From contig JAFGPQ010000303.1 of the NCBI GenBank assembly GCA_016936115.1, positions 1-37,210 on the forward strand: 37,210 nt of DNA, written 5' to 3'. A program made the position numbers and the translations under genes. Each line of letters opens with the position of its first letter. Within the stretch, counting starts at the first letter, position 1. Source of the DNA: Spirochaetales bacterium (lineage in GTDB: Bacteria; Spirochaetota; Spirochaetia; DSM-2461). Below the pieces are notes generated by a model that was given only the letters and a program-made list of their open reading frames with translations, ran no database searches and was not told the DNA's origin. Of the stretch, positions 19,319 to 26,556 are shown one piece after another.

Positions 19319-19969
19319 TCAGCTCCAGTATCTGGCGATTTCCTCTTTATAGATCCTGGCTTCCTGCGCCGGATCGGGAGCGTTCCTGAGATTCCTTCCC
19401 ACAATAAAGCACTTGACGGGAATCCCCTTGAACAGCTTGATCACATCTACGGTCAGTCCGCCCGTAACGGAGACATCCATGCCCATATCGGCCAGTTTCT
19501 TGACCACGTTCATATTGGCTTCTCCCCAGGATCCTCCCGAGTTCAGGGCATCCCGGCTCTGATGATAGATGACCTGCTTCAACCCCAGTTCCTTCCAGGA
19601 TTCCACCTGTTCGAATGTCCAGTTGCCGAACAGCTCCACCTGCATCTCTTTTCCGTATTTCTCCGCCGCTTCCACCGCTTTCGCCTTGGTGGCGTTGGCC
19701 GCATTACACATGACGGTTACCCAGTCGGCTCCCCTTTCAAAGGCCATGCCGGCCAGTTCACCCCCCGCATCGACGATCTTCAGGTCCGCCACGATCAGGT
19801 TTTCCGGATAGAGGGTTCTCATGGTTTTGATGGAATCGGCCCCCGTGGACAGACAGAGGAGTGTGCCTACCTCGATGACGTCAAGTTCGGGAGCCAGGAT
19901 CCTGGTTGATTCCAGGGCATCGGCCACGGTAAAATTATCCAAAGCGACCTGCAAAAGGGGTGCGCTCAT
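19319..19969 (-). CDS. ulaD: 3-keto-L-gulonate-6-phosphate decarboxylase
   Basis: Decarboxylates 3-keto-L-gulonate 6-phosphate to L-xylulose 5-phosphate in the anaerobic ascorbate pathway. With 216 residues it has the same length as E. coli UlaD, and the active-site residues known for that enzyme fall at the same numbers: D11, E33, D62-x-K64-x-x-D67 in A-D-L-K-I-V-D-A-G, H136 and R139 in Y-H-Q-S-R-D. It is a (beta/alpha)8 barrel of the orotidine phosphate decarboxylase superfamily. The start at 19969 is set by GGAGGAGA upstream and by a 4-base ATGA overlap with ulaC, which implies translational coupling. It is the last gene of the minus-strand ula operon; the epimerase genes ulaE and ulaF do not follow. 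Confidence 0.95.
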   Translation of the reverse strand: MSAPLLQVALDNFTVADALESTRILAPELDVIEVGTLLCLSTGADSIKTMRTLYPENLIVADLKIVDAGGELAGMAFERGADWVTVMCNAANATKAKAVEAAEKYGKEMQVELFGNWTFEQVESWKELGLKQVIYHQSRDALNSGGSWGEANMNVVKKLADMGMDVSVTGGLTVDVIKLFKGIPVKCFIVGRNLRNAPDPAQEARIYKEEIARYWS

Positions 19970-20430
19970 ATCATCTCCTCCAATTCGTTGAATATTTTCT
20001 CCAGATCCTCTATGCATGTGGCTTTTCTCAGGTCAGCCATGGCCTTCTCGTCATCGAGCAGAGTCACGACCTGAATAATCGCCTCTTCATTCTGCGTTTT
20101 CGCATCCACTGCCGCCAGAGTGATCAATATATCGATAGGGTCGTTATCGGGATCTCCGAAATTGACCGGTTCCTTCAGGGTTACGATGGCAAAGCTATTC
20201 TCCAGTACTCCGCCTTCGGGCCGCCCGTGGGGCATTGCCATGCCGGGAGCCATGATAAAATAGGGGCCGAGCTCTTCCACACCGGCCAAAATCTCATGGT
20301 AATACTTCTCAGTAATTGTCCCCGCTTCCACGAGGATATCCGTACCCGCCTTGACGGCTTCCTTCCAGTCACAGGCATCAACCTGAAACCGGGCCGCCCT
20401 GCGGGAGAGAACATGTTCCTGCAAATTCAT
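19966..20430 (-). CDS. ulaC: PTS ascorbate-type EIIA component
   Basis: A 154-residue cytoplasmic phosphocarrier that receives phosphate from HPr and passes it to EIIB. It belongs to the mannitol/fructose-type EIIA fold used by ascorbate systems; the phospho-acceptor is H68 in A-P-G-M-A-M-P-H-G-R-P-E. The downstream segment V-N-F-G-D-P-D-N-D-P-I-D-I-L-I-T-L-A-A-V-D is typical of UlaC. It follows ulaB by 12 bases and overlaps ulaD by 4. Confidence 0.93.
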   Translation of the reverse strand: MNLQEHVLSRRAARFQVDACDWKEAVKAGTDILVEAGTITEKYYHEILAGVEELGPYFIMAPGMAMPHGRPEGGVLENSFAIVTLKEPVNFGDPDNDPIDILITLAAVDAKTQNEEAIIQVVTLLDDEKAMADLRKATCIEDLEKIFNELEEMI

Positions 20431-20442
20431 TTTATTTCCTTA

Positions 20443-20751
20443 TTATTTCCCCATTTCCCCGGGAAAGTGTTCATTAACCACATTCATAATCTGGGGACCG
20501 AACTCCTTGGCGCTCATAAGATTGACCAGCCCGATCACATGAACGCCCTCGGGAGCGTGTAGATTGGAAACGAGGTTTTTGGAACAGAGTACGATATTCA
20601 CCCCCTGGTTCATGTAACCTCCCGCCTCCCCCAGGGAACAGGACTCCATGGATGCGTTGATCCCCTGTTTGTCAAGAAACTGCTTAACCTTCATTTTTAT
20701 TACAAGGCTGGTCCCCATACCGTTGCCGCATACGGCTAAAACCTTAATCAT
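20443..20751 (-). CDS. ulaB: PTS ascorbate-type EIIB component
   Basis: A 102-residue cytoplasmic protein that phosphorylates the incoming sugar. The P-loop V-C-G-N-G-M-G-T-S carries the phospho-acceptor C8, as in UlaB/SgaB and the lactose-type EIIB fold. A good AGGAGG site precedes the ATG. A stem-loop lies in the 80-base spacer after ulaA. Together with ulaA and ulaC it completes a split three-protein permease. Confidence 0.94.
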   Translation of the reverse strand: MIKVLAVCGNGMGTSLVIKMKVKQFLDKQGINASMESCSLGEAGGYMNQGVNIVLCSKNLVSNLHAPEGVHVIGLVNLMSAKEFGPQIMNVVNEHFPGEMGK

Positions 20752-20831: not shown

Positions 20832-22271
20832 CTATTCGGCAGCGGCCAGTTTCGTATCTCTCATAGTTGTGAAATAGGTCTCTTTGTAGTGTTTATACTG
20901 AAACTGGGGAATGATCATAAGCAGGGGGATCATAAGGATCGGAACGATGATGCCCAGCTTATCGGTCAGAAGCACGGCGCCGGACCAGAGAGTGGCCCAG
21001 TCGAACATACCCATCCAGCCGATGACGGCGGGGCCGTCTTTGAGAACTGTCAGAACCAGAGCGGAGCCGAATACCTGAATGAGTCCGGCGATAAAGGGTA
21101 TGACAGCGGCGGCTCTTCTTCCGCCTGCCTTGTTGGCGAATACGGCAAGGGTGCCGTTATCGAAGAAGAGGCAGATGAATCCGGCGATAATCAGCACGGG
21201 GGACTTCAGGACGATCAGAGTAAGGATGGCAATCATCTGGCCGAAGAATCCGAACATGAAGCCGAAAGTAGGCGCGTTGGGGGAAAAACCGAAGGTGACG
21301 GCGCAGTCCACGGCGGGAACAGACCCCTTGAGAAGCTTGTCCGATATACCCTTGAAAGAGGCGGTAAGCTCGGCGACGAACATGCGGACTCCCTGCTGCA
21401 GAACGGCGATATATACGGCGAACAGAGCGGTCTGCTCGAAAACATAGGTGGCGAAGAAGTACTTGTTCGTATCGTAATTGAAGGAGTCCTTGCCCAGAAT
21501 CACCATGATGGTGCCTACGAAGAGGGTCATGAGCATGGTATTGGCCACCACGTTGTCATTTAGAATAGACAGAAAACCGGGAGCTTCCACATGGTTGACG
21601 TCGTGCTTTCTGTTGCCGATTTTACCGGCGAATTTGTAGGCGAGCCAGGCGCCGAACATCTGCTGGTGTCCTATGGTGAAACCGGCCCCGTCGGTGACTT
21701 CCTGTGTAGCTTCGATAACCAGGTTGGACATGACGGACCAGTAGGTGCCCATCAGGAGCCCGATGACAAGAACGAGAAAGGGTGAAGCGGGCTGTCCGCC
21801 GGTGCCCTGGATGACCCAGTACATGGCCCACAGAAGGACGGCTGACTGCTGGTACATGATGTGTCCCGTAATAAACAGGGTTCTGATTTTGGTAAACTTT
21901 CTCAGAGCCACATAGACGATATTCAGAAGGAAAGCGATGAGCATGACATATCCAACAAACTGAAGGGAGCTGAAATGATCCAGCGTTTCCGTGGCGGATG
22001 TCTGACCGAAATAGGGATCGATTACCAGGGCGGTAATGCCGTATCTGTCGGAAAGGCTCGTAATGATGGGCTTGAAGGTTCCCACCAGTCCGCCCGTACC
22101 GACCTGCAGGATTTTAAACCCCACATAGGTTTTAATGAATCCCGCCAGACTGTCATACCACTTTTTCCCAAGCAGCAGATATCCGACAAAAGTCAGAGTA
22201 CCGAGAAGCAGCGCGGGCTGCCCGAGGAACTTGTTGATAAAGCCCATGAAAATACTTAACACAACATCCAT
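20832..22271 (-). CDS. ulaA: PTS ascorbate-type EIIC permease
   Basis: A 479-residue inner-membrane transporter that moves L-ascorbate while EIIB phosphorylates it. It opens with M-D-V-V-L-S-I-F-M-G-F-I-N-K-F-L-G-Q-P-A, continues through about ten or eleven hydrophobic helices, and shows family blocks such as L-Q-V-G-T-G-G-L-V-G-T-F-K-P-I, F-T-I-G-H-Q-Q-M-F-G-A-W and A-V-D-C-A-V-T-F-G-F-S-P-N-A-P. GGGAG lies 7 bases before the ATG. The promoter and tandem DeoR-type operators precede it. The length is close to that of E. coli UlaA (465). A related sugar acid as substrate cannot be excluded, but neighbouring ulaD and ulaG support ascorbate. Confidence 0.94.
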   Translation of the reverse strand: MDVVLSIFMGFINKFLGQPALLLGTLTFVGYLLLGKKWYDSLAGFIKTYVGFKILQVGTGGLVGTFKPIITSLSDRYGITALVIDPYFGQTSATETLDHFSSLQFVGYVMLIAFLLNIVYVALRKFTKIRTLFITGHIMYQQSAVLLWAMYWVIQGTGGQPASPFLVLVIGLLMGTYWSVMSNLVIEATQEVTDGAGFTIGHQQMFGAWLAYKFAGKIGNRKHDVNHVEAPGFLSILNDNVVANTMLMTLFVGTIMVILGKDSFNYDTNKYFFATYVFEQTALFAVYIAVLQQGVRMFVAELTASFKGISDKLLKGSVPAVDCAVTFGFSPNAPTFGFMFGFFGQMIAILTLIVLKSPVLIIAGFICLFFDNGTLAVFANKAGGRRAAAVIPFIAGLIQVFGSALVLTVLKDGPAVIGWMGMFDWATLWSGAVLLTDKLGIIVPILMIPLLMIIPQFQYKHYKETYFTTMRDTKLAAAE

Positions 22272-22318: not shown

Positions 22319-22358
22319 ATAATCATATCAATCATTTTAACGATCAATACGATCATTT
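22319..22358 (-). promoter_or_regulatory. ulaA promoter overlapped by tandem 9-bp operator repeats
   Basis: On the minus strand TTGATC (22347-22342) and GATTAT (22324-22319) are 17 bases apart. Read on the plus strand, CGATCAATA (22341-22349) and CGATCATTT (22350-22358) are head-to-tail 9-bp repeats covering the -35. The same tandem unit occurs before ulaG. Direct repeats are typical of DeoR-family operators, and the DeoR gene ends 80 bases away. Confidence 0.75.
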
Positions 22359-22438
22359 ATATGCAATTCTAACCCTGTTTTTACGATAACGCAAGAGAAA
22401 TATTTACCTATTCTCCCTTTTGATCACTTTAGATGATT

Positions 22439-23221
22439 TTATTGTTCTATTTGTGCAATTAATACTTCCAGGCCCTCATTCCTGAATGCGTCAATCTCTT
22501 CTCTTTCGGACTTTTCATCGGTAATGAGCACATCTACCTTATCCAGAGGCATGGTGGGGAAATTGGCGACCATCCCCAGTTTCGACGAATCGGCGAGGAC
22601 GATAACCTGCCCGTGGCAATGGTCAACCATCATGCGGTTAACCCCCGTCTCCTGCTGTACGGAGCAGGTCAGCCCTTTCAGTGCATGGATACTGTTGGTG
22701 CTCAGAATGGTGCAATTGCTGTATATCTCCCTGAGGGTATAGATGGCCATATCCCCTACCAGAGACTGGGAGGCCTCCCGGAATTCCCCACCCACGAGAT
22801 AAACCTCGACCAGGGGATCCTTCTTGACCTGAAGAACGGCGGCGTTATTCGTTATAATCCTCACGTTCTTCCCCGAGAGCTGTCTGACCACTTCCAGGGT
22901 TGTGGAACCGCTGTTGAGAAAGACCGTATCCCCGTCCCTGATCAGTTCCACCGCTTTCTTGGCGATGGCCCTCTTCTCCAGGACGTTGAGATGCCCCTTC
23001 TCGGTAAGGCGGTGTTCTCGGGTTTCCCCGTTCTTCGCCTTGGCTCCGCCGTGGACTCTCTCGATCTTCCCTTGCTGATCAAGGACATCGAGATCCCTTC
23101 TGATCGTGATGGGGGAAACGTCGAATTCTTCGCTCAATTCATTGACATCGACCTTTCCGTCCTGGGAAAGGATATCAACAATCCGGTCCTGTCTGATCGC
23201 GGAAACTCTTCGCTTACCCAT
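22439..23221 (-). CDS. ulaR: DeoR-family transcriptional regulator, UlaR-like
   Basis: A 260-residue repressor. The DeoR signature winged helix is at about 8-62 (R-Q-D-R-I-V-D-I-L, V-D-V-N-E-L-S-E-E-F-D-V-S-P-I-T-I-R-R-D-L, then I-E-R-V-H-G-G-A). The C-terminal sensor (about 85-250) has the phosphosugar isomerase-like fold with D-G-D-T-V-F-L-N-S-G-S-T-T and the late V-L-A-D-S-S-K-L-G. In E. coli UlaR, the ligand is L-ascorbate 6-phosphate; by context the same is inferred here. The gene lies between ptsI and ulaA on the same strand. The TATAAT at 23272-23267 and an operator-like half site suggest a promoter of its own. The ribosome site is weak. Confidence 0.9.
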   Translation of the reverse strand: MGKRRVSAIRQDRIVDILSQDGKVDVNELSEEFDVSPITIRRDLDVLDQQGKIERVHGGAKAKNGETREHRLTEKGHLNVLEKRAIAKKAVELIRDGDTVFLNSGSTTLEVVRQLSGKNVRIITNNAAVLQVKKDPLVEVYLVGGEFREASQSLVGDMAIYTLREIYSNCTILSTNSIHALKGLTCSVQQETGVNRMMVDHCHGQVIVLADSSKLGMVANFPTMPLDKVDVLITDEKSEREEIDAFRNEGLEVLIAQIEQ

Positions 23222-23266
23222 AATGCCCGATTCTCATCCTCTTCATCAGTATTGTCGCCTACACAT

Positions 23267-23285
23267 ATTATATCAGATCATTTTG
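23267..23285 (-). promoter_or_regulatory. Possible own promoter and operator half-site of the DeoR gene
   Basis: TATAAT on the minus strand (23272-23267) sits about 45 bases before the DeoR start. GATCATTT at 23277-23284, at the very end of ptsI, matches eight of nine bases of the CGATCATTT unit seen at ulaA and ulaG. No good -35 is visible, so this may be only an internal weak promoter. Confidence 0.4.
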
Positions 23286-25034
23286 TCCTTGAGTACCGGG
23301 GCTGAGAGACTCCGACCGGTATGCCTTGAGAATCTCCAGGATTTCCCGGCTTTCTCCGGCATTCAGGACACGGACAGCCAGTTCCCTGAGATCGGCACGG
23401 GAACTTCTCCGGATGATATCCTTTATTCGCGGGATGCTTCCGGCGCTCATGCTGAACTCATCAAGGCCCATACCCAGCAGCAGGGGCGCCGCCCGTTCGT
23501 CTCCGGCCAGTTCACCGCACATGCCGGTCCATTTCCCCTCCTCATGGGAGGCTAGAATGACCCTGTGGATAAGCTGAAGCACCGCCGGATGCAGGGGCTG
23601 ATAAAGATCGGCTATCCTCTCGTTCCCCCGGTCCACCGCCAGGGTGTACTGGGTCAGATCATTCGTCCCTATACTGAAGAAGTCCACTTCCCTGATAAGA
23701 ATGTGGGCGGTGAGGGCGGCGGCGGGGGTTTCGATCATAATCCCCACTTCAATATCCTCATCAAAGGGAACTCCCGCCGCCCGAAGATCATCCTTTGCTT
23801 TACCCAGCAGAGCGTTGAGCCGCCGAATCTCCGACAGGGAGATGACCATGGGATACATAATGCGCAGCTTTCCGTAATGGCTGGCCCTCAGAATGGCCCT
23901 GAGCTGAAGGGCGAACATCTCGGGAAGATCAAGGCACATGCGAACGGCCCTCCATCCCAGGAAGGGATTCTCCTCTTTCTGCAAGCCCAGACCGGGAACG
24001 TCCTTATCCCCCCCTATATCGAGGGTCCTTATAATGATCCCTTTCCCGCCCAGCGATTCGGCGACCTTCCTGTAGACGGCGAACTGCTCCTCCTCGGTGG
24101 GCAGCCGGCCCTTATCCATGTAAAGGAATTCCGTGCGGAACAGTCCGATCCCTTCGGCGCCATGGCTCAGTACGCCTTCCAGCTCCCGCTCGGAACCGAT
24201 GTTAGCGCAGAGCTCTACCCGGTGTCCGTCCAGTGTTTCCGCCGGCAGATCCCGGAGCCGGTCAAGAAACTCCCTCTCTTTCTTCAGAAGGCTGATTTTT
24301 TCCCCGCAGGCGCTGCGGGTTTCTTCCCGGGGATCGAAAACGACCGAGCCGGCGGTGCCGTCCAGCACGGCGATCTGATTGTCCCGGCAATGGCTCAGCA
24401 GTTCTCCCGCCCCGACCACAGCGGGAATTTCCAGGGATTTCGCCATAATGGTCACATGGGAGGTCAGTCCTCCCCTCTCCGTGGCGAATCCCAGTATTCG
24501 CTTCTTGTCCATCTGCGCCGTATCGGAAGGGGTGAGGTCCTCGGCGATAACAATCACTTCCTCTTCAAGAGAGTCCAGGGAGACCAGTTCCTCACCGGCC
24601 ACGGCGTACAGCAGCCTCCGCCCGATATCTCTCAGATCGGCGGCACGCTCCCTCATGTAGGGATTTTCAAGCTCTTCCATTTCCCGGGCATTCTCTTCAA
24701 AAACCTCGCCCAGGGCCTTCTCCGCGGAAAAGCGGTATCCACCGATCCGTTCCTTTATTTCCTCTTCAAGATCCTCATCCATAAGGATCTCCAGATGGCC
24801 TTCGAAGACTTCCGCCTCTTCCCCGCTCAGATTCTCTACCGCCCGGGCATGTATCCCCGCGAGCTGTTCAAAGGCTTTCCGCCGGCCTTCCAGAAACCGG
24901 CCGATCTCCTGTTCTACCTGCTCTTCGGGAATTTCCTCTTCGGGAATGACCAGCCTCTTCTGTTCCAGGCGAAAGACTTTCCCCATCCCGATTCCGGGAG
25001 AAGCGGATATGCCTCTGACTTCAATTTCCCCCAT
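23268..25034 (-). CDS. ptsI: PTS Enzyme I (phosphoenolpyruvate-protein phosphotransferase)
   Basis: A 588-residue cytoplasmic enzyme that takes phosphate from phosphoenolpyruvate and hands it to HPr. The N-terminal HPr-binding and phosphohistidine region leads to the active H193 in E-R-G-G-L-T-S-H-V-T-I-M-A-K; common Enzyme I proteins read G-G-R-T-S-H-T-A-I-M, so this copy deviates slightly. The C-terminal PEP-binding barrel shows G-I-G-L-F-R-T-E-F-L-Y, R-T-L-D-I-G-G-D-K, I-G-T-N-D-L-T-Q-Y and the acid/base Cys in M-C-G-E-L-A-G-D. It follows ptsH by 6 bases, with GGAG inside the end of ptsH. Placement upstream of deoR and the ula genes suggests a copy dedicated to, or at least co-regulated with, ascorbate uptake. 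Confidence 0.96.
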   Translation of the reverse strand: MGEIEVRGISASPGIGMGKVFRLEQKRLVIPEEEIPEEQVEQEIGRFLEGRRKAFEQLAGIHARAVENLSGEEAEVFEGHLEILMDEDLEEEIKERIGGYRFSAEKALGEVFEENAREMEELENPYMRERAADLRDIGRRLLYAVAGEELVSLDSLEEEVIVIAEDLTPSDTAQMDKKRILGFATERGGLTSHVTIMAKSLEIPAVVGAGELLSHCRDNQIAVLDGTAGSVVFDPREETRSACGEKISLLKKEREFLDRLRDLPAETLDGHRVELCANIGSERELEGVLSHGAEGIGLFRTEFLYMDKGRLPTEEEQFAVYRKVAESLGGKGIIIRTLDIGGDKDVPGLGLQKEENPFLGWRAVRMCLDLPEMFALQLRAILRASHYGKLRIMYPMVISLSEIRRLNALLGKAKDDLRAAGVPFDEDIEVGIMIETPAAALTAHILIREVDFFSIGTNDLTQYTLAVDRGNERIADLYQPLHPAVLQLIHRVILASHEEGKWTGMCGELAGDERAAPLLLGMGLDEFSMSAGSIPRIKDIIRRSSRADLRELAVRVLNAGESREILEILKAYRSESLSPGTQGQNDLI

Positions 25035-25040
25035 TGCCGC

Positions 25041-25301
25041 TCACTCCGTCAGGGCGGCAACGAACCGGCACAGTTCGTCCAGGGCCGTCTCTTCGTCCTC
25101 CCCGCTACAGGTGATGAGAATGCGGTCCCCCAGGGAGATGCCGATTTTCATCAGTTTCAAAAGGCTTTTCCCGCTGAACTCCCTGTCCCCCTTGCGAACG
25201 GTTATCTCCGATTCAAAGGTTTTCGCCAATTTAACGAACTGGTTCCCCGGCCGGGTATGGAGACCGGTTTCGTTGACTATCTCAATTTCTCTGGAAATCA
25301 T
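25041..25301 (-). CDS. ptsH: PTS phosphocarrier HPr
   Basis: An 86-residue phosphocarrier between Enzyme I and EIIA. The active H15 lies in N-E-T-G-L-H-T-R-P-G-N-Q-F-V-K-L-A, where most HPr proteins have R-P-A. S46 in G-K-S-L-L-K-L-M is present, so regulation by an HPr kinase is possible if the organism has one. The start at 25301 fits the usual HPr length and has AGGAG 8 bases upstream; a longer in-frame ATG at 25352 is rejected. It is the first gene of the minus-strand operon, divergent from ulaG, with the operator repeats in between. Confidence 0.94.
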   Translation of the reverse strand: MISREIEIVNETGLHTRPGNQFVKLAKTFESEITVRKGDREFSGKSLLKLMKIGISLGDRILITCSGEDEETALDELCRFVAALTE

Positions 25302-25389
25302 TTTCGAACTCCTATGACAAAGGATTCTACAACGGAATCTTCGAGTTGGCAAGGAAAAATATGATCTTATTGATTGTTTTAGTTTTTTT

Positions 25390-25472
25390 ATCGATCATTT
25401 CGATCATTTTTTAATTGACAATGATCGATATATGGGTGAAAATAGGAAAAAAGAGGATCAATACGACCAATC
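25390..25472 (+). promoter_or_regulatory. ulaG/ptsH divergent control region: promoter plus DeoR-type operators
   Basis: CGATCATTT occurs in tandem at 25392-25400 and 25401-25409. ATCGATCATT (25390-25399) is also matched by the inverted AATGATCGAT at 25420-25429. A promoter for ulaG reads TTGACA (25415-25420), 17 bases, GAAAAT (25438-25443), so the operators flank and overlap its -35. A weaker tandem, GGATCAATA and CGACCAATC (25455-25472), lies in the leader. Because ptsH starts at 25301 on the other strand, the same operators can control both directions. Confidence 0.75.
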
Positions 25473-25494: not shown

Positions 25495-26556
25495 ATGAAT
25501 GTCAATGAGGTAACCAAGGCAAAATGGCTGAACGATGTTTTCCCCGAATGGGGGACCTGGCTGAACGAAGAAATAGAAGAGGAAGAGGTCAAGCCGGGGA
25601 CCTTTGCCATGTGGTGGCTCGGATGTACGGGCATCTGGCTGAAATCGGAGGGGAACGCCAATATCATGGTGGATTTCTGGACGAAAAGCGGCAAGCGGAG
25701 CAGGAAGAACAAACTCATGGCCCATCAGCACCAGCATCAGAGGATGATCGGCTGTGTGGCCCTTCAGCCTAATCTGCGGAATGCTCCCTGCGTTCTTGAT
25801 CCCTTCGGCATCAAGACGGTGGACGCGGTGCTTTCCACCCATGACCACGGCGATCATATTGACCCCTACGTAGCGGCTGCGGTCCTTCAGAACTGCCCCG
25901 ATACGGTTCCTTTCATCGGCCCTCAGGCCTGCGTTGACCTGTGGATCAGCTGGGGGGTTCCCGCCGAGAGATGCCGAGTTGTCCGTCCCGGAGACGAAAT
26001 AACCATAAAGGACACCACCATTATCGCCCTGGACTCCTTCGACCGGACCGAACTGGTAACGGCCCCCAAAGGGATGGTTCTGAAAGGCAATCCGGTCAGG
26101 GAGATGGACGATTTGGCGGTGAATTATCTCTTCAAAACACCCGGGGGGAACCTCTACCACTCGGGGGATTCCCACTACTCCAATTACTTTGCCAAACACG
26201 GAAACGATCATAGGGTGGATGTGGCTCTCGGATCTTTCGGGGAGAATCCCCGGGGCATGACCGATAAGATCAATGCGGCGGATATGCTCAGAATGGCCGA
26301 ATCTCTTAATACGAAAGTCATTATCCCCATCCACCATGACGTCTGGACGAATTTCATGGCCGATCCCCGGGAAATCACCGTCCTCTGGAATATGAAAAAG
26401 GACCGGCTCAAGTACGGTTTCAAGCCTTACATCTGGCAGGTGGGAGGCAAATTCACCTGGCCCGAGAACAAGGACGATATGGAGTTCATGTTCGACAGGG
26501 GTTTTCATGACGCCTTTGAAATCGAACCGGATCTCCCCTTCAAATCTCTCCTGTAG
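25495..26556 (+). CDS. ulaG: L-ascorbate-6-phosphate lactonase
   Basis: Hydrolyses the lactone ring of L-ascorbate 6-phosphate to 3-keto-L-gulonate 6-phosphate, the first step after uptake. It is a cytoplasmic, metal-dependent member of the metallo-beta-lactamase fold. The metal motif [10 protein letters not shown], preceded by L-G-C-T-G-I-W-L and followed by Y-H-S-G-D-S-H and I-P-I-H-H-D-V-W, is clear. The 353-residue length from the ATG at 25495 matches E. coli UlaG (354), and AAGGAG lies 6 bases upstream; an earlier in-frame ATG at 25432 is rejected since it lies at the promoter. It is divergent from ptsH and followed by a terminator. Confidence 0.96.

Follow-up and report, generated by a model that had tools for sequence, protein, structure and literature searches.

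How the ascorbate utilization genes of a Spirochaetales bacterium are controlled, and what their DeoR-family regulator might recognize, are questions raised by a locus within a 37,210-nucleotide stretch of its DNA (GenBank assembly GCA_016936115.1, contig JAFGPQ010000303.1, positions 1 to 37,210 of the forward strand; this whole stretch is referred to as the window). Two intergenic regions of this locus, located 3 kb apart, contain tandem 9-bp repeats that are real and locus specific. The half-site consensus is WWWTGATYG, and the operator is composed of two direct repeats with starts 9 bp apart. Because these repeat words are found at ascorbate gene promoters and nowhere else in the genome, they very probably serve as binding sites for the regulator encoded by the locus. 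Based on position, conservation, and the habit of the family, we propose with good confidence that they act as operators for the DeoR-family repressor encoded at positions 22439-23221, which would control ulaA-B-C-D, ulaG, and its own operon, ptsH-ptsI-ulaR.

An initial annotation, made from the sequence of the window, had described head-to-tail pairs before ulaA (22341-22358) and ulaG/ptsH (25392-25409), a weaker pair at 25455-25472, and an inverted copy at 25420-25429, all of which were recovered at these positions. Reading the unit reported at that time, CGATCATTT, from the opposite strand, as WWWTGATYG, is preferable because it brings all pairs into register. The sites read in this manner are as follows.

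22339-22358, minus strand: O_A, AAATGATCG-TATTGATCG-TT, initially annotated as CGATCAATA-CGATCATTT at 22341-22358.
22320-22337, minus strand: O_A2, a weaker second ulaA pair, AAATGATTG-ATATGATTA, with 3 mismatches and a matrix score of 11.6.
25359-25376 (25359-25378 including the trailing TT), plus strand: O_G1, ATATGATCT-TATTGATTG-TT, overlooked in the initial annotation.
25392-25409 (25390-25409 including the trailing AT), minus strand: O_G2, AAATGATCG-AAATGATCG-AT, initially annotated as CGATCATTT-CGATCATTT.
25453-25472, minus strand: O_G4, GATTGGTCG-TATTGATCC-TC, initially annotated as GGATCAATA-CGACCAATC at 25455-25472.
25419-25429, plus strand: a lone half-site in the opposite orientation, AATGATCGAT, located between the -35 and -10 hexamers of ulaG.

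At ulaA, O_A2 sits 3 bp from O_A, the four half-sites beginning at 0, 9, 21, and 30, and the matrix spacing test also revealed peaks at 12 and 21, which correspond to this O_A/O_A2 arrangement. A counterpart of the lone half-site, TGATC, is present at a similar place in spirochete locus L138; inspection by eye of the ulaG promoters of L138 (6448-6680) and L144 (4740-4838) revealed TGATC or TGATT between -35 and -10, a likeness that was not significant in the matrix test. The single GATCATTT initially assigned to the region preceding deoR is in fact at 23276-23283 (plus strand), a shift of one position, and belongs to the 3' end of the ptsI open reading frame (23268-25034). It was rejected as a part of the system, being inside ptsI, without a partner in the 46-bp ptsI-ulaR gap, and at chance level. 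In the window, single copies with one mismatch displayed no clear enrichment (16 found versus 11.1 expected).

Pattern searches were performed over the whole genome, a 3.93-Mb draft, and the matrix leave-one-out analysis over the 37-kb window. The exact pair CGATCAWWNCGATCAWW has two matches in the genome, both at the locus (22341-22358, ulaA promoter; 25392-25409, ulaG/ptsH), and allowing up to 2 mismatches led to 46 places, 4 of them inside the two intergenic regions of the locus. The second consensus, TGATCKTATTGATYGTT, gave two matches with no mismatch, both at the locus (O_A and, at 25362-25378, O_G1). No site differed from it by a single mismatch, and relaxing the limit to 3 mismatches raised the number to 43, including 4 at the locus. 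Most of the background matches that were checked fell within long open reading frames. No exact match to the same half-sites at a 10-bp or 12-bp spacing was detected genome-wide; the 12-bp spacing with 1 mismatch gave three genome matches, one of which is the junction between the two ulaA pairs. Altered spacing and shuffles were used as the controls, since a reversed pattern is possibly unfair, as CTAG-containing words may be rare. The motif is therefore not scattered at random, the exact pair being present only at the locus, and the regulon appears to be confined to the ula locus.

Repeats of this type might arise by coincidence, without any function, in AT-rich intergenic DNA: the GC content of the intergenic regions is low (0.28 and 0.34), and the weakest units (the pair at 22320 and the single copies) are individually unremarkable. 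However, dinucleotide shuffling of the three intergenic regions led to a mean of 0.015 pairs with up to 2 mismatches versus the 4 observed, a number reached in 0 of 1,000 shuffles. The absence of any further exact copy in 3.93 Mb and the conservation of the pair at an orthologous promoter (see below) also argue against coincidence, which we regard as negligible. Genome and shuffle counts were obtained with patterns derived from the sites themselves, and the leave-one-out and ortholog comparisons are therefore fairer tests. In the leave-one-out analysis of 74,382 window positions, with the training sites set aside, three of the four sites, including O_A, ranked first, and O_G4, the weakest of the four main pairs, ranked fourth.

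The candidate sites were positioned relative to three promoters.

22366-22394, minus strand: ulaA promoter, TTGCGT-N17-TAGAAT, with a weak -35 and missed by the consensus scan.
25324-25352, minus strand: ptsH promoter, TTGCCA-N17-TAGAAT, found by the consensus scan.
25415-25443, plus strand: ulaG promoter, TTGACA-N17-GAAAAT, found by the consensus scan.

The -35, -10, and spacer length of the ulaA promoter are kept in locus L135 and similar in L062, and the -35, spacing, and -10 of the ulaG promoter look similar, by eye, in L062, L063, and L064. O_A starts 7 bp past the ulaA -10 hexamer and therefore covers the expected transcription start. O_G1 and O_G2 are immediately upstream of the -35 hexamers of ptsH and ulaG, respectively, and O_G4 is immediately past the expected ulaG transcription start. 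This agrees with the earlier description of pairs overlapping or flanking promoters, and direct-repeat operators near sugar gene promoters are common, although not universal, in the DeoR family. O_G2 and O_G4 have a center-to-center distance of 63 bp, or roughly six turns of the helix, and it is possible that a short loop could form between them across the ulaG promoter. The location of O_A, at and past the expected ulaA start, would also be compatible with an element acting in the RNA, as part of a 5' leader, rather than with a DNA operator. This explanation is very improbable, because the same pair also precedes the -35 hexamers of ulaG and ptsH, where it would not be part of the transcripts as assigned here, and because it occurs in both orientations.

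The best ortholog of the regulator (54% identity) is encoded by G017 (locus L135), which belongs to another genus of the same family and displays the gene order ptsI-ulaR-ulaA-EIIB-EIIA-ulaD-ulaE-ulaF. Its ulaA promoter reads TTGCGC-N17-TATTAT-N6-AAATGTTCT-TATTGATTG-TT, so that both hexamers, the 17-bp spacer between them, and the repeat pair are all kept in place, and the O_G1 string is almost identical to this operator. Application of a matrix built only from the window sites to this promoter indicated that 0 of 1,000 shuffles scored as high and that 9 bp was the best spacing (z score of 4.4). Over 98 genomes (own and relatives), exact matches to TGWTCKTATTGATYGTT comprised only two window sites and the G017 ulaA promoter, which is not an independent match there because the W in TGWTCKTATTGATYGTT was picked after seeing G017. 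At orthologous ula promoters, the pair is kept at ulaA of G017 and is marginal or unrecognizable where the regulator is ~45% identical. Neither of the two outcomes that the initial annotation had named as refuting (a motif equally common at random genome sites, or one lacking conservation at orthologous promoters) occurred, and its proposal of a DeoR operator is supported.

Several observations weigh against the assignment of the repeats to this regulator. Sequence conservation is clear in one ortholog only; at ~45% regulator identity, it is absent or marginal (9/1,000 for L063, 30/1,000 for L064, and 9/1,000 for L187, values uncorrected for the 11 regions analyzed). The sequence of G002, the closest relative of the same genus with ulaG, is cut at the start of that gene, leaving the promoter unreadable; contig ends fall in the ulaG/ptsH region of both G002 and G017, which the comparison of this region therefore leaves out. 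The 9-bp spacing is also shorter than the 10 to 11 bp reported for the sites of the DeoR-family regulator RhaR. Nothing significant was detected when the window operator matrix was applied to the ula intergenic DNA of E. coli (L155). An exact 9-bp repeat upstream of ulaG in L062 (two copies of AAAAAGAAC) was rejected, as it belongs to low-complexity DNA and was equaled by 91 of 1,000 shuffles. The best half-site spacings in ula intergenic regions were 11 bp in L136 (z score of 3.2), 11 bp in L187 (z score of 3.7), and 10 bp in E. coli (z score of 2.5), hinting at a drift of repeat spacing among ula regulators; this hint is weak because many spacings were tested.

The regulator and its proposed targets are encoded as follows (PTS, phosphotransferase system; EII, enzyme II).

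22439-23221, minus strand: DeoR-family regulator (HTH_DeoR plus DeoRC), called UlaR from context.
20832-22271, minus strand: ulaA, ascorbate-type PTS EIIC, in proposed target operon 1 with EIIB, EIIA, and ulaD.
20443-20751, minus strand: EIIB, target operon 1.
19966-20430, minus strand: EIIA, target operon 1.
19319-20017, minus strand: ulaD, 3-keto-L-gulonate-6-phosphate decarboxylase, target operon 1.
25041-25304, minus strand: ptsH, proposed target operon 2.
23268-25034, minus strand: ptsI, proposed target operon 2.
25495-26556, plus strand: ulaG, L-ascorbate-6-phosphate lactonase, proposed target 3, passing the NCBIfam equivalog cutoff (619.5 versus 306).

The regulator has the domains of the DeoR family, namely, an N-terminal HTH_DeoR (PF08220; 70.4 bits) and a C-terminal DeoRC sensor domain (PF00455; 142.6 bits), both above the gathering scores. 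Comparison with the NCBIfam models for named DeoR members gave scores below every cutoff, including that of UlaR (NF010034; 117.8 bits versus 244); the AgaR and GlpR models outscored the UlaR model, both still below their own cutoffs. By analogy, the regulator would work like UlaR, yet it falls outside the curated UlaR equivalog. Its gene is linked to those for the ascorbate PTS, UlaG, and UlaD, and the ulaA and ulaG promoters carry candidate operators; many spirochete loci encode a regulator of about 45 to 54% identity near ulaG or ulaA. The 46-bp ptsI-ulaR gap contains no repeat pair, and ptsH-ptsI-ulaR are therefore probably a single operon. A full-length enzyme I homolog (38% identity) is encoded elsewhere in the genome (C163:37748-39451), and in G299 (L203) ptsH and ptsI come after ulaF. 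Together with the presence of ptsH-ptsI in the ula cluster itself, these arrangements suggest that the cluster may have a phosphorelay dedicated to ascorbate. The window operon ends at ulaD (19319) without ulaE and ulaF, which come after ulaD in L135 and L062. Copies of ulaE and ulaF elsewhere in the genome were considered as further regulon members and rejected, no convincing operator being found; the best UlaF-like gene (57%) is a UlaF/AraD homolog in an arabinose-type cluster (C340), and the UlaE-like match is only partial (C91).

In the proposed scheme, the regulator would, without inducer, occupy one strong and one weak pair at the beginning of ulaA-B-C-D, together with the three pairs around the divergent promoters of ptsH-ptsI-ulaR and ulaG, and would thereby shut off the three promoters, its own among them. 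The inducer, if the analogy with E. coli UlaR holds, would be a phosphorylated ascorbate intermediate that releases the regulator.

A DeoR paralog (C134:14366-15151; 44% identity) ranks second among the matches to the regulator in this genome; it has the same domain makeup, and its gene precedes those for an Ldh_2 dehydrogenase and malic enzyme, a non-ascorbate operon. Its promoter (L147, C134:14306-14366), AAATGATCGTATCTGATTGACAATGATCATATTGGCGCTTATAGT, carries TGATC, TGATT, and TGATC at 0, 10, and 20, one half-site being merged with the -35 (TGATTGACA), and this 10-bp arrangement is conserved in three genomes of the same genus (own, G001 [L145], and G002 [L205]). With the ula half-site matrix, the best spacing at the C134 promoter was 10 bp (z score of 4.6; 0/300) versus a z score of 1.3 at 9 bp, and 10 bp was also the best spacing for the paralog promoters of G001 (z score of 3.4) and G002 (z score of 2.6). 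More distant DeoR genes displayed 10-bp pairs in G009 (z score of 3.6) and G018 (z score of 3.9, with 11 and 12 bp nearly equal), and results for G004, G011, and G015 were weak. A further candidate operator, CGGTCATACCGATCATT at C134:15599, falls within the Ldh_2 coding sequence and was discarded as a coding match. Strings similar to CGGTCATACCGATCATT occur in G009 and G018.

Since the C134 promoter shares the TGATC half-site, the latter is not diagnostic of a particular protein, and the window repeats might be read by another regulator, such as the paralog, instead of or in an overlapping manner with the regulator of the locus. We consider this unlikely, because the sites of the paralog are spaced by 10 bp rather than 9 bp, its operon encodes the Ldh_2 dehydrogenase and malic enzyme, and the 9-bp form accompanies the ula-linked regulator into G017. 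The two DeoR paralogs seem to share a half-site and to differ in spacing. This raises the tentative idea, which we hold to be somewhat doubtful, of a code based on spacing instead of sequence, according to which TGATC would be read by both paralogs and a single base (9 bp for ascorbate, 10 bp for dehydrogenase and malic enzyme) would insulate the two regulons.

The E. coli repressor UlaR, a DeoR protein, occupies four ula operators as a tetramer and is released by L-ascorbate 6-phosphate, as summarized in PMC3219644 (citing Garces et al. 2008). Relative to that summary, the window similarly combines a DeoR protein linked to ascorbate genes with several candidate operators over the ulaG and ulaA promoters, and relief of repression by L-ascorbate 6-phosphate is proposed by analogy. 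Unlike the E. coli system, in which the operators are described within one 354-bp region, the window sites are in two regions with ptsH-ptsI-ulaR between them, the proposed regulon includes ptsHI, and the regulator is about 30% identical to UlaR, far below the UlaR NCBIfam cutoff. Operators of the DeoR-family rhamnose regulator RhaR are two imperfect direct repeats with a 10- to 11-bp periodicity, sometimes in longer tandem arrays, and Chloroflexus RhaR was shown to bind such an array (PMC3870299). The window operators are likewise tandem direct repeats but differ from those of RhaR by the 9-bp spacing, the half-site, and the pathway. The C134 paralog is similar in its domains, in its 44% identity, and in its TGATC direct repeats, and differs by the 10-bp spacing, the three half-sites, and the location of one of these within the -35. 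The locus offers a concrete, testable candidate operator for a spirochete DeoR ascorbate regulator to which the E. coli UlaR model does not extend. It also brings ptsH-ptsI, a second general PTS gene set, under proposed ascorbate control, and the paralog pair would allow a clean test of whether related regulons can be separated by repeat spacing. Compared to these systems, the kind of switch is already known, whereas the 9-bp spacing is new and unusual.

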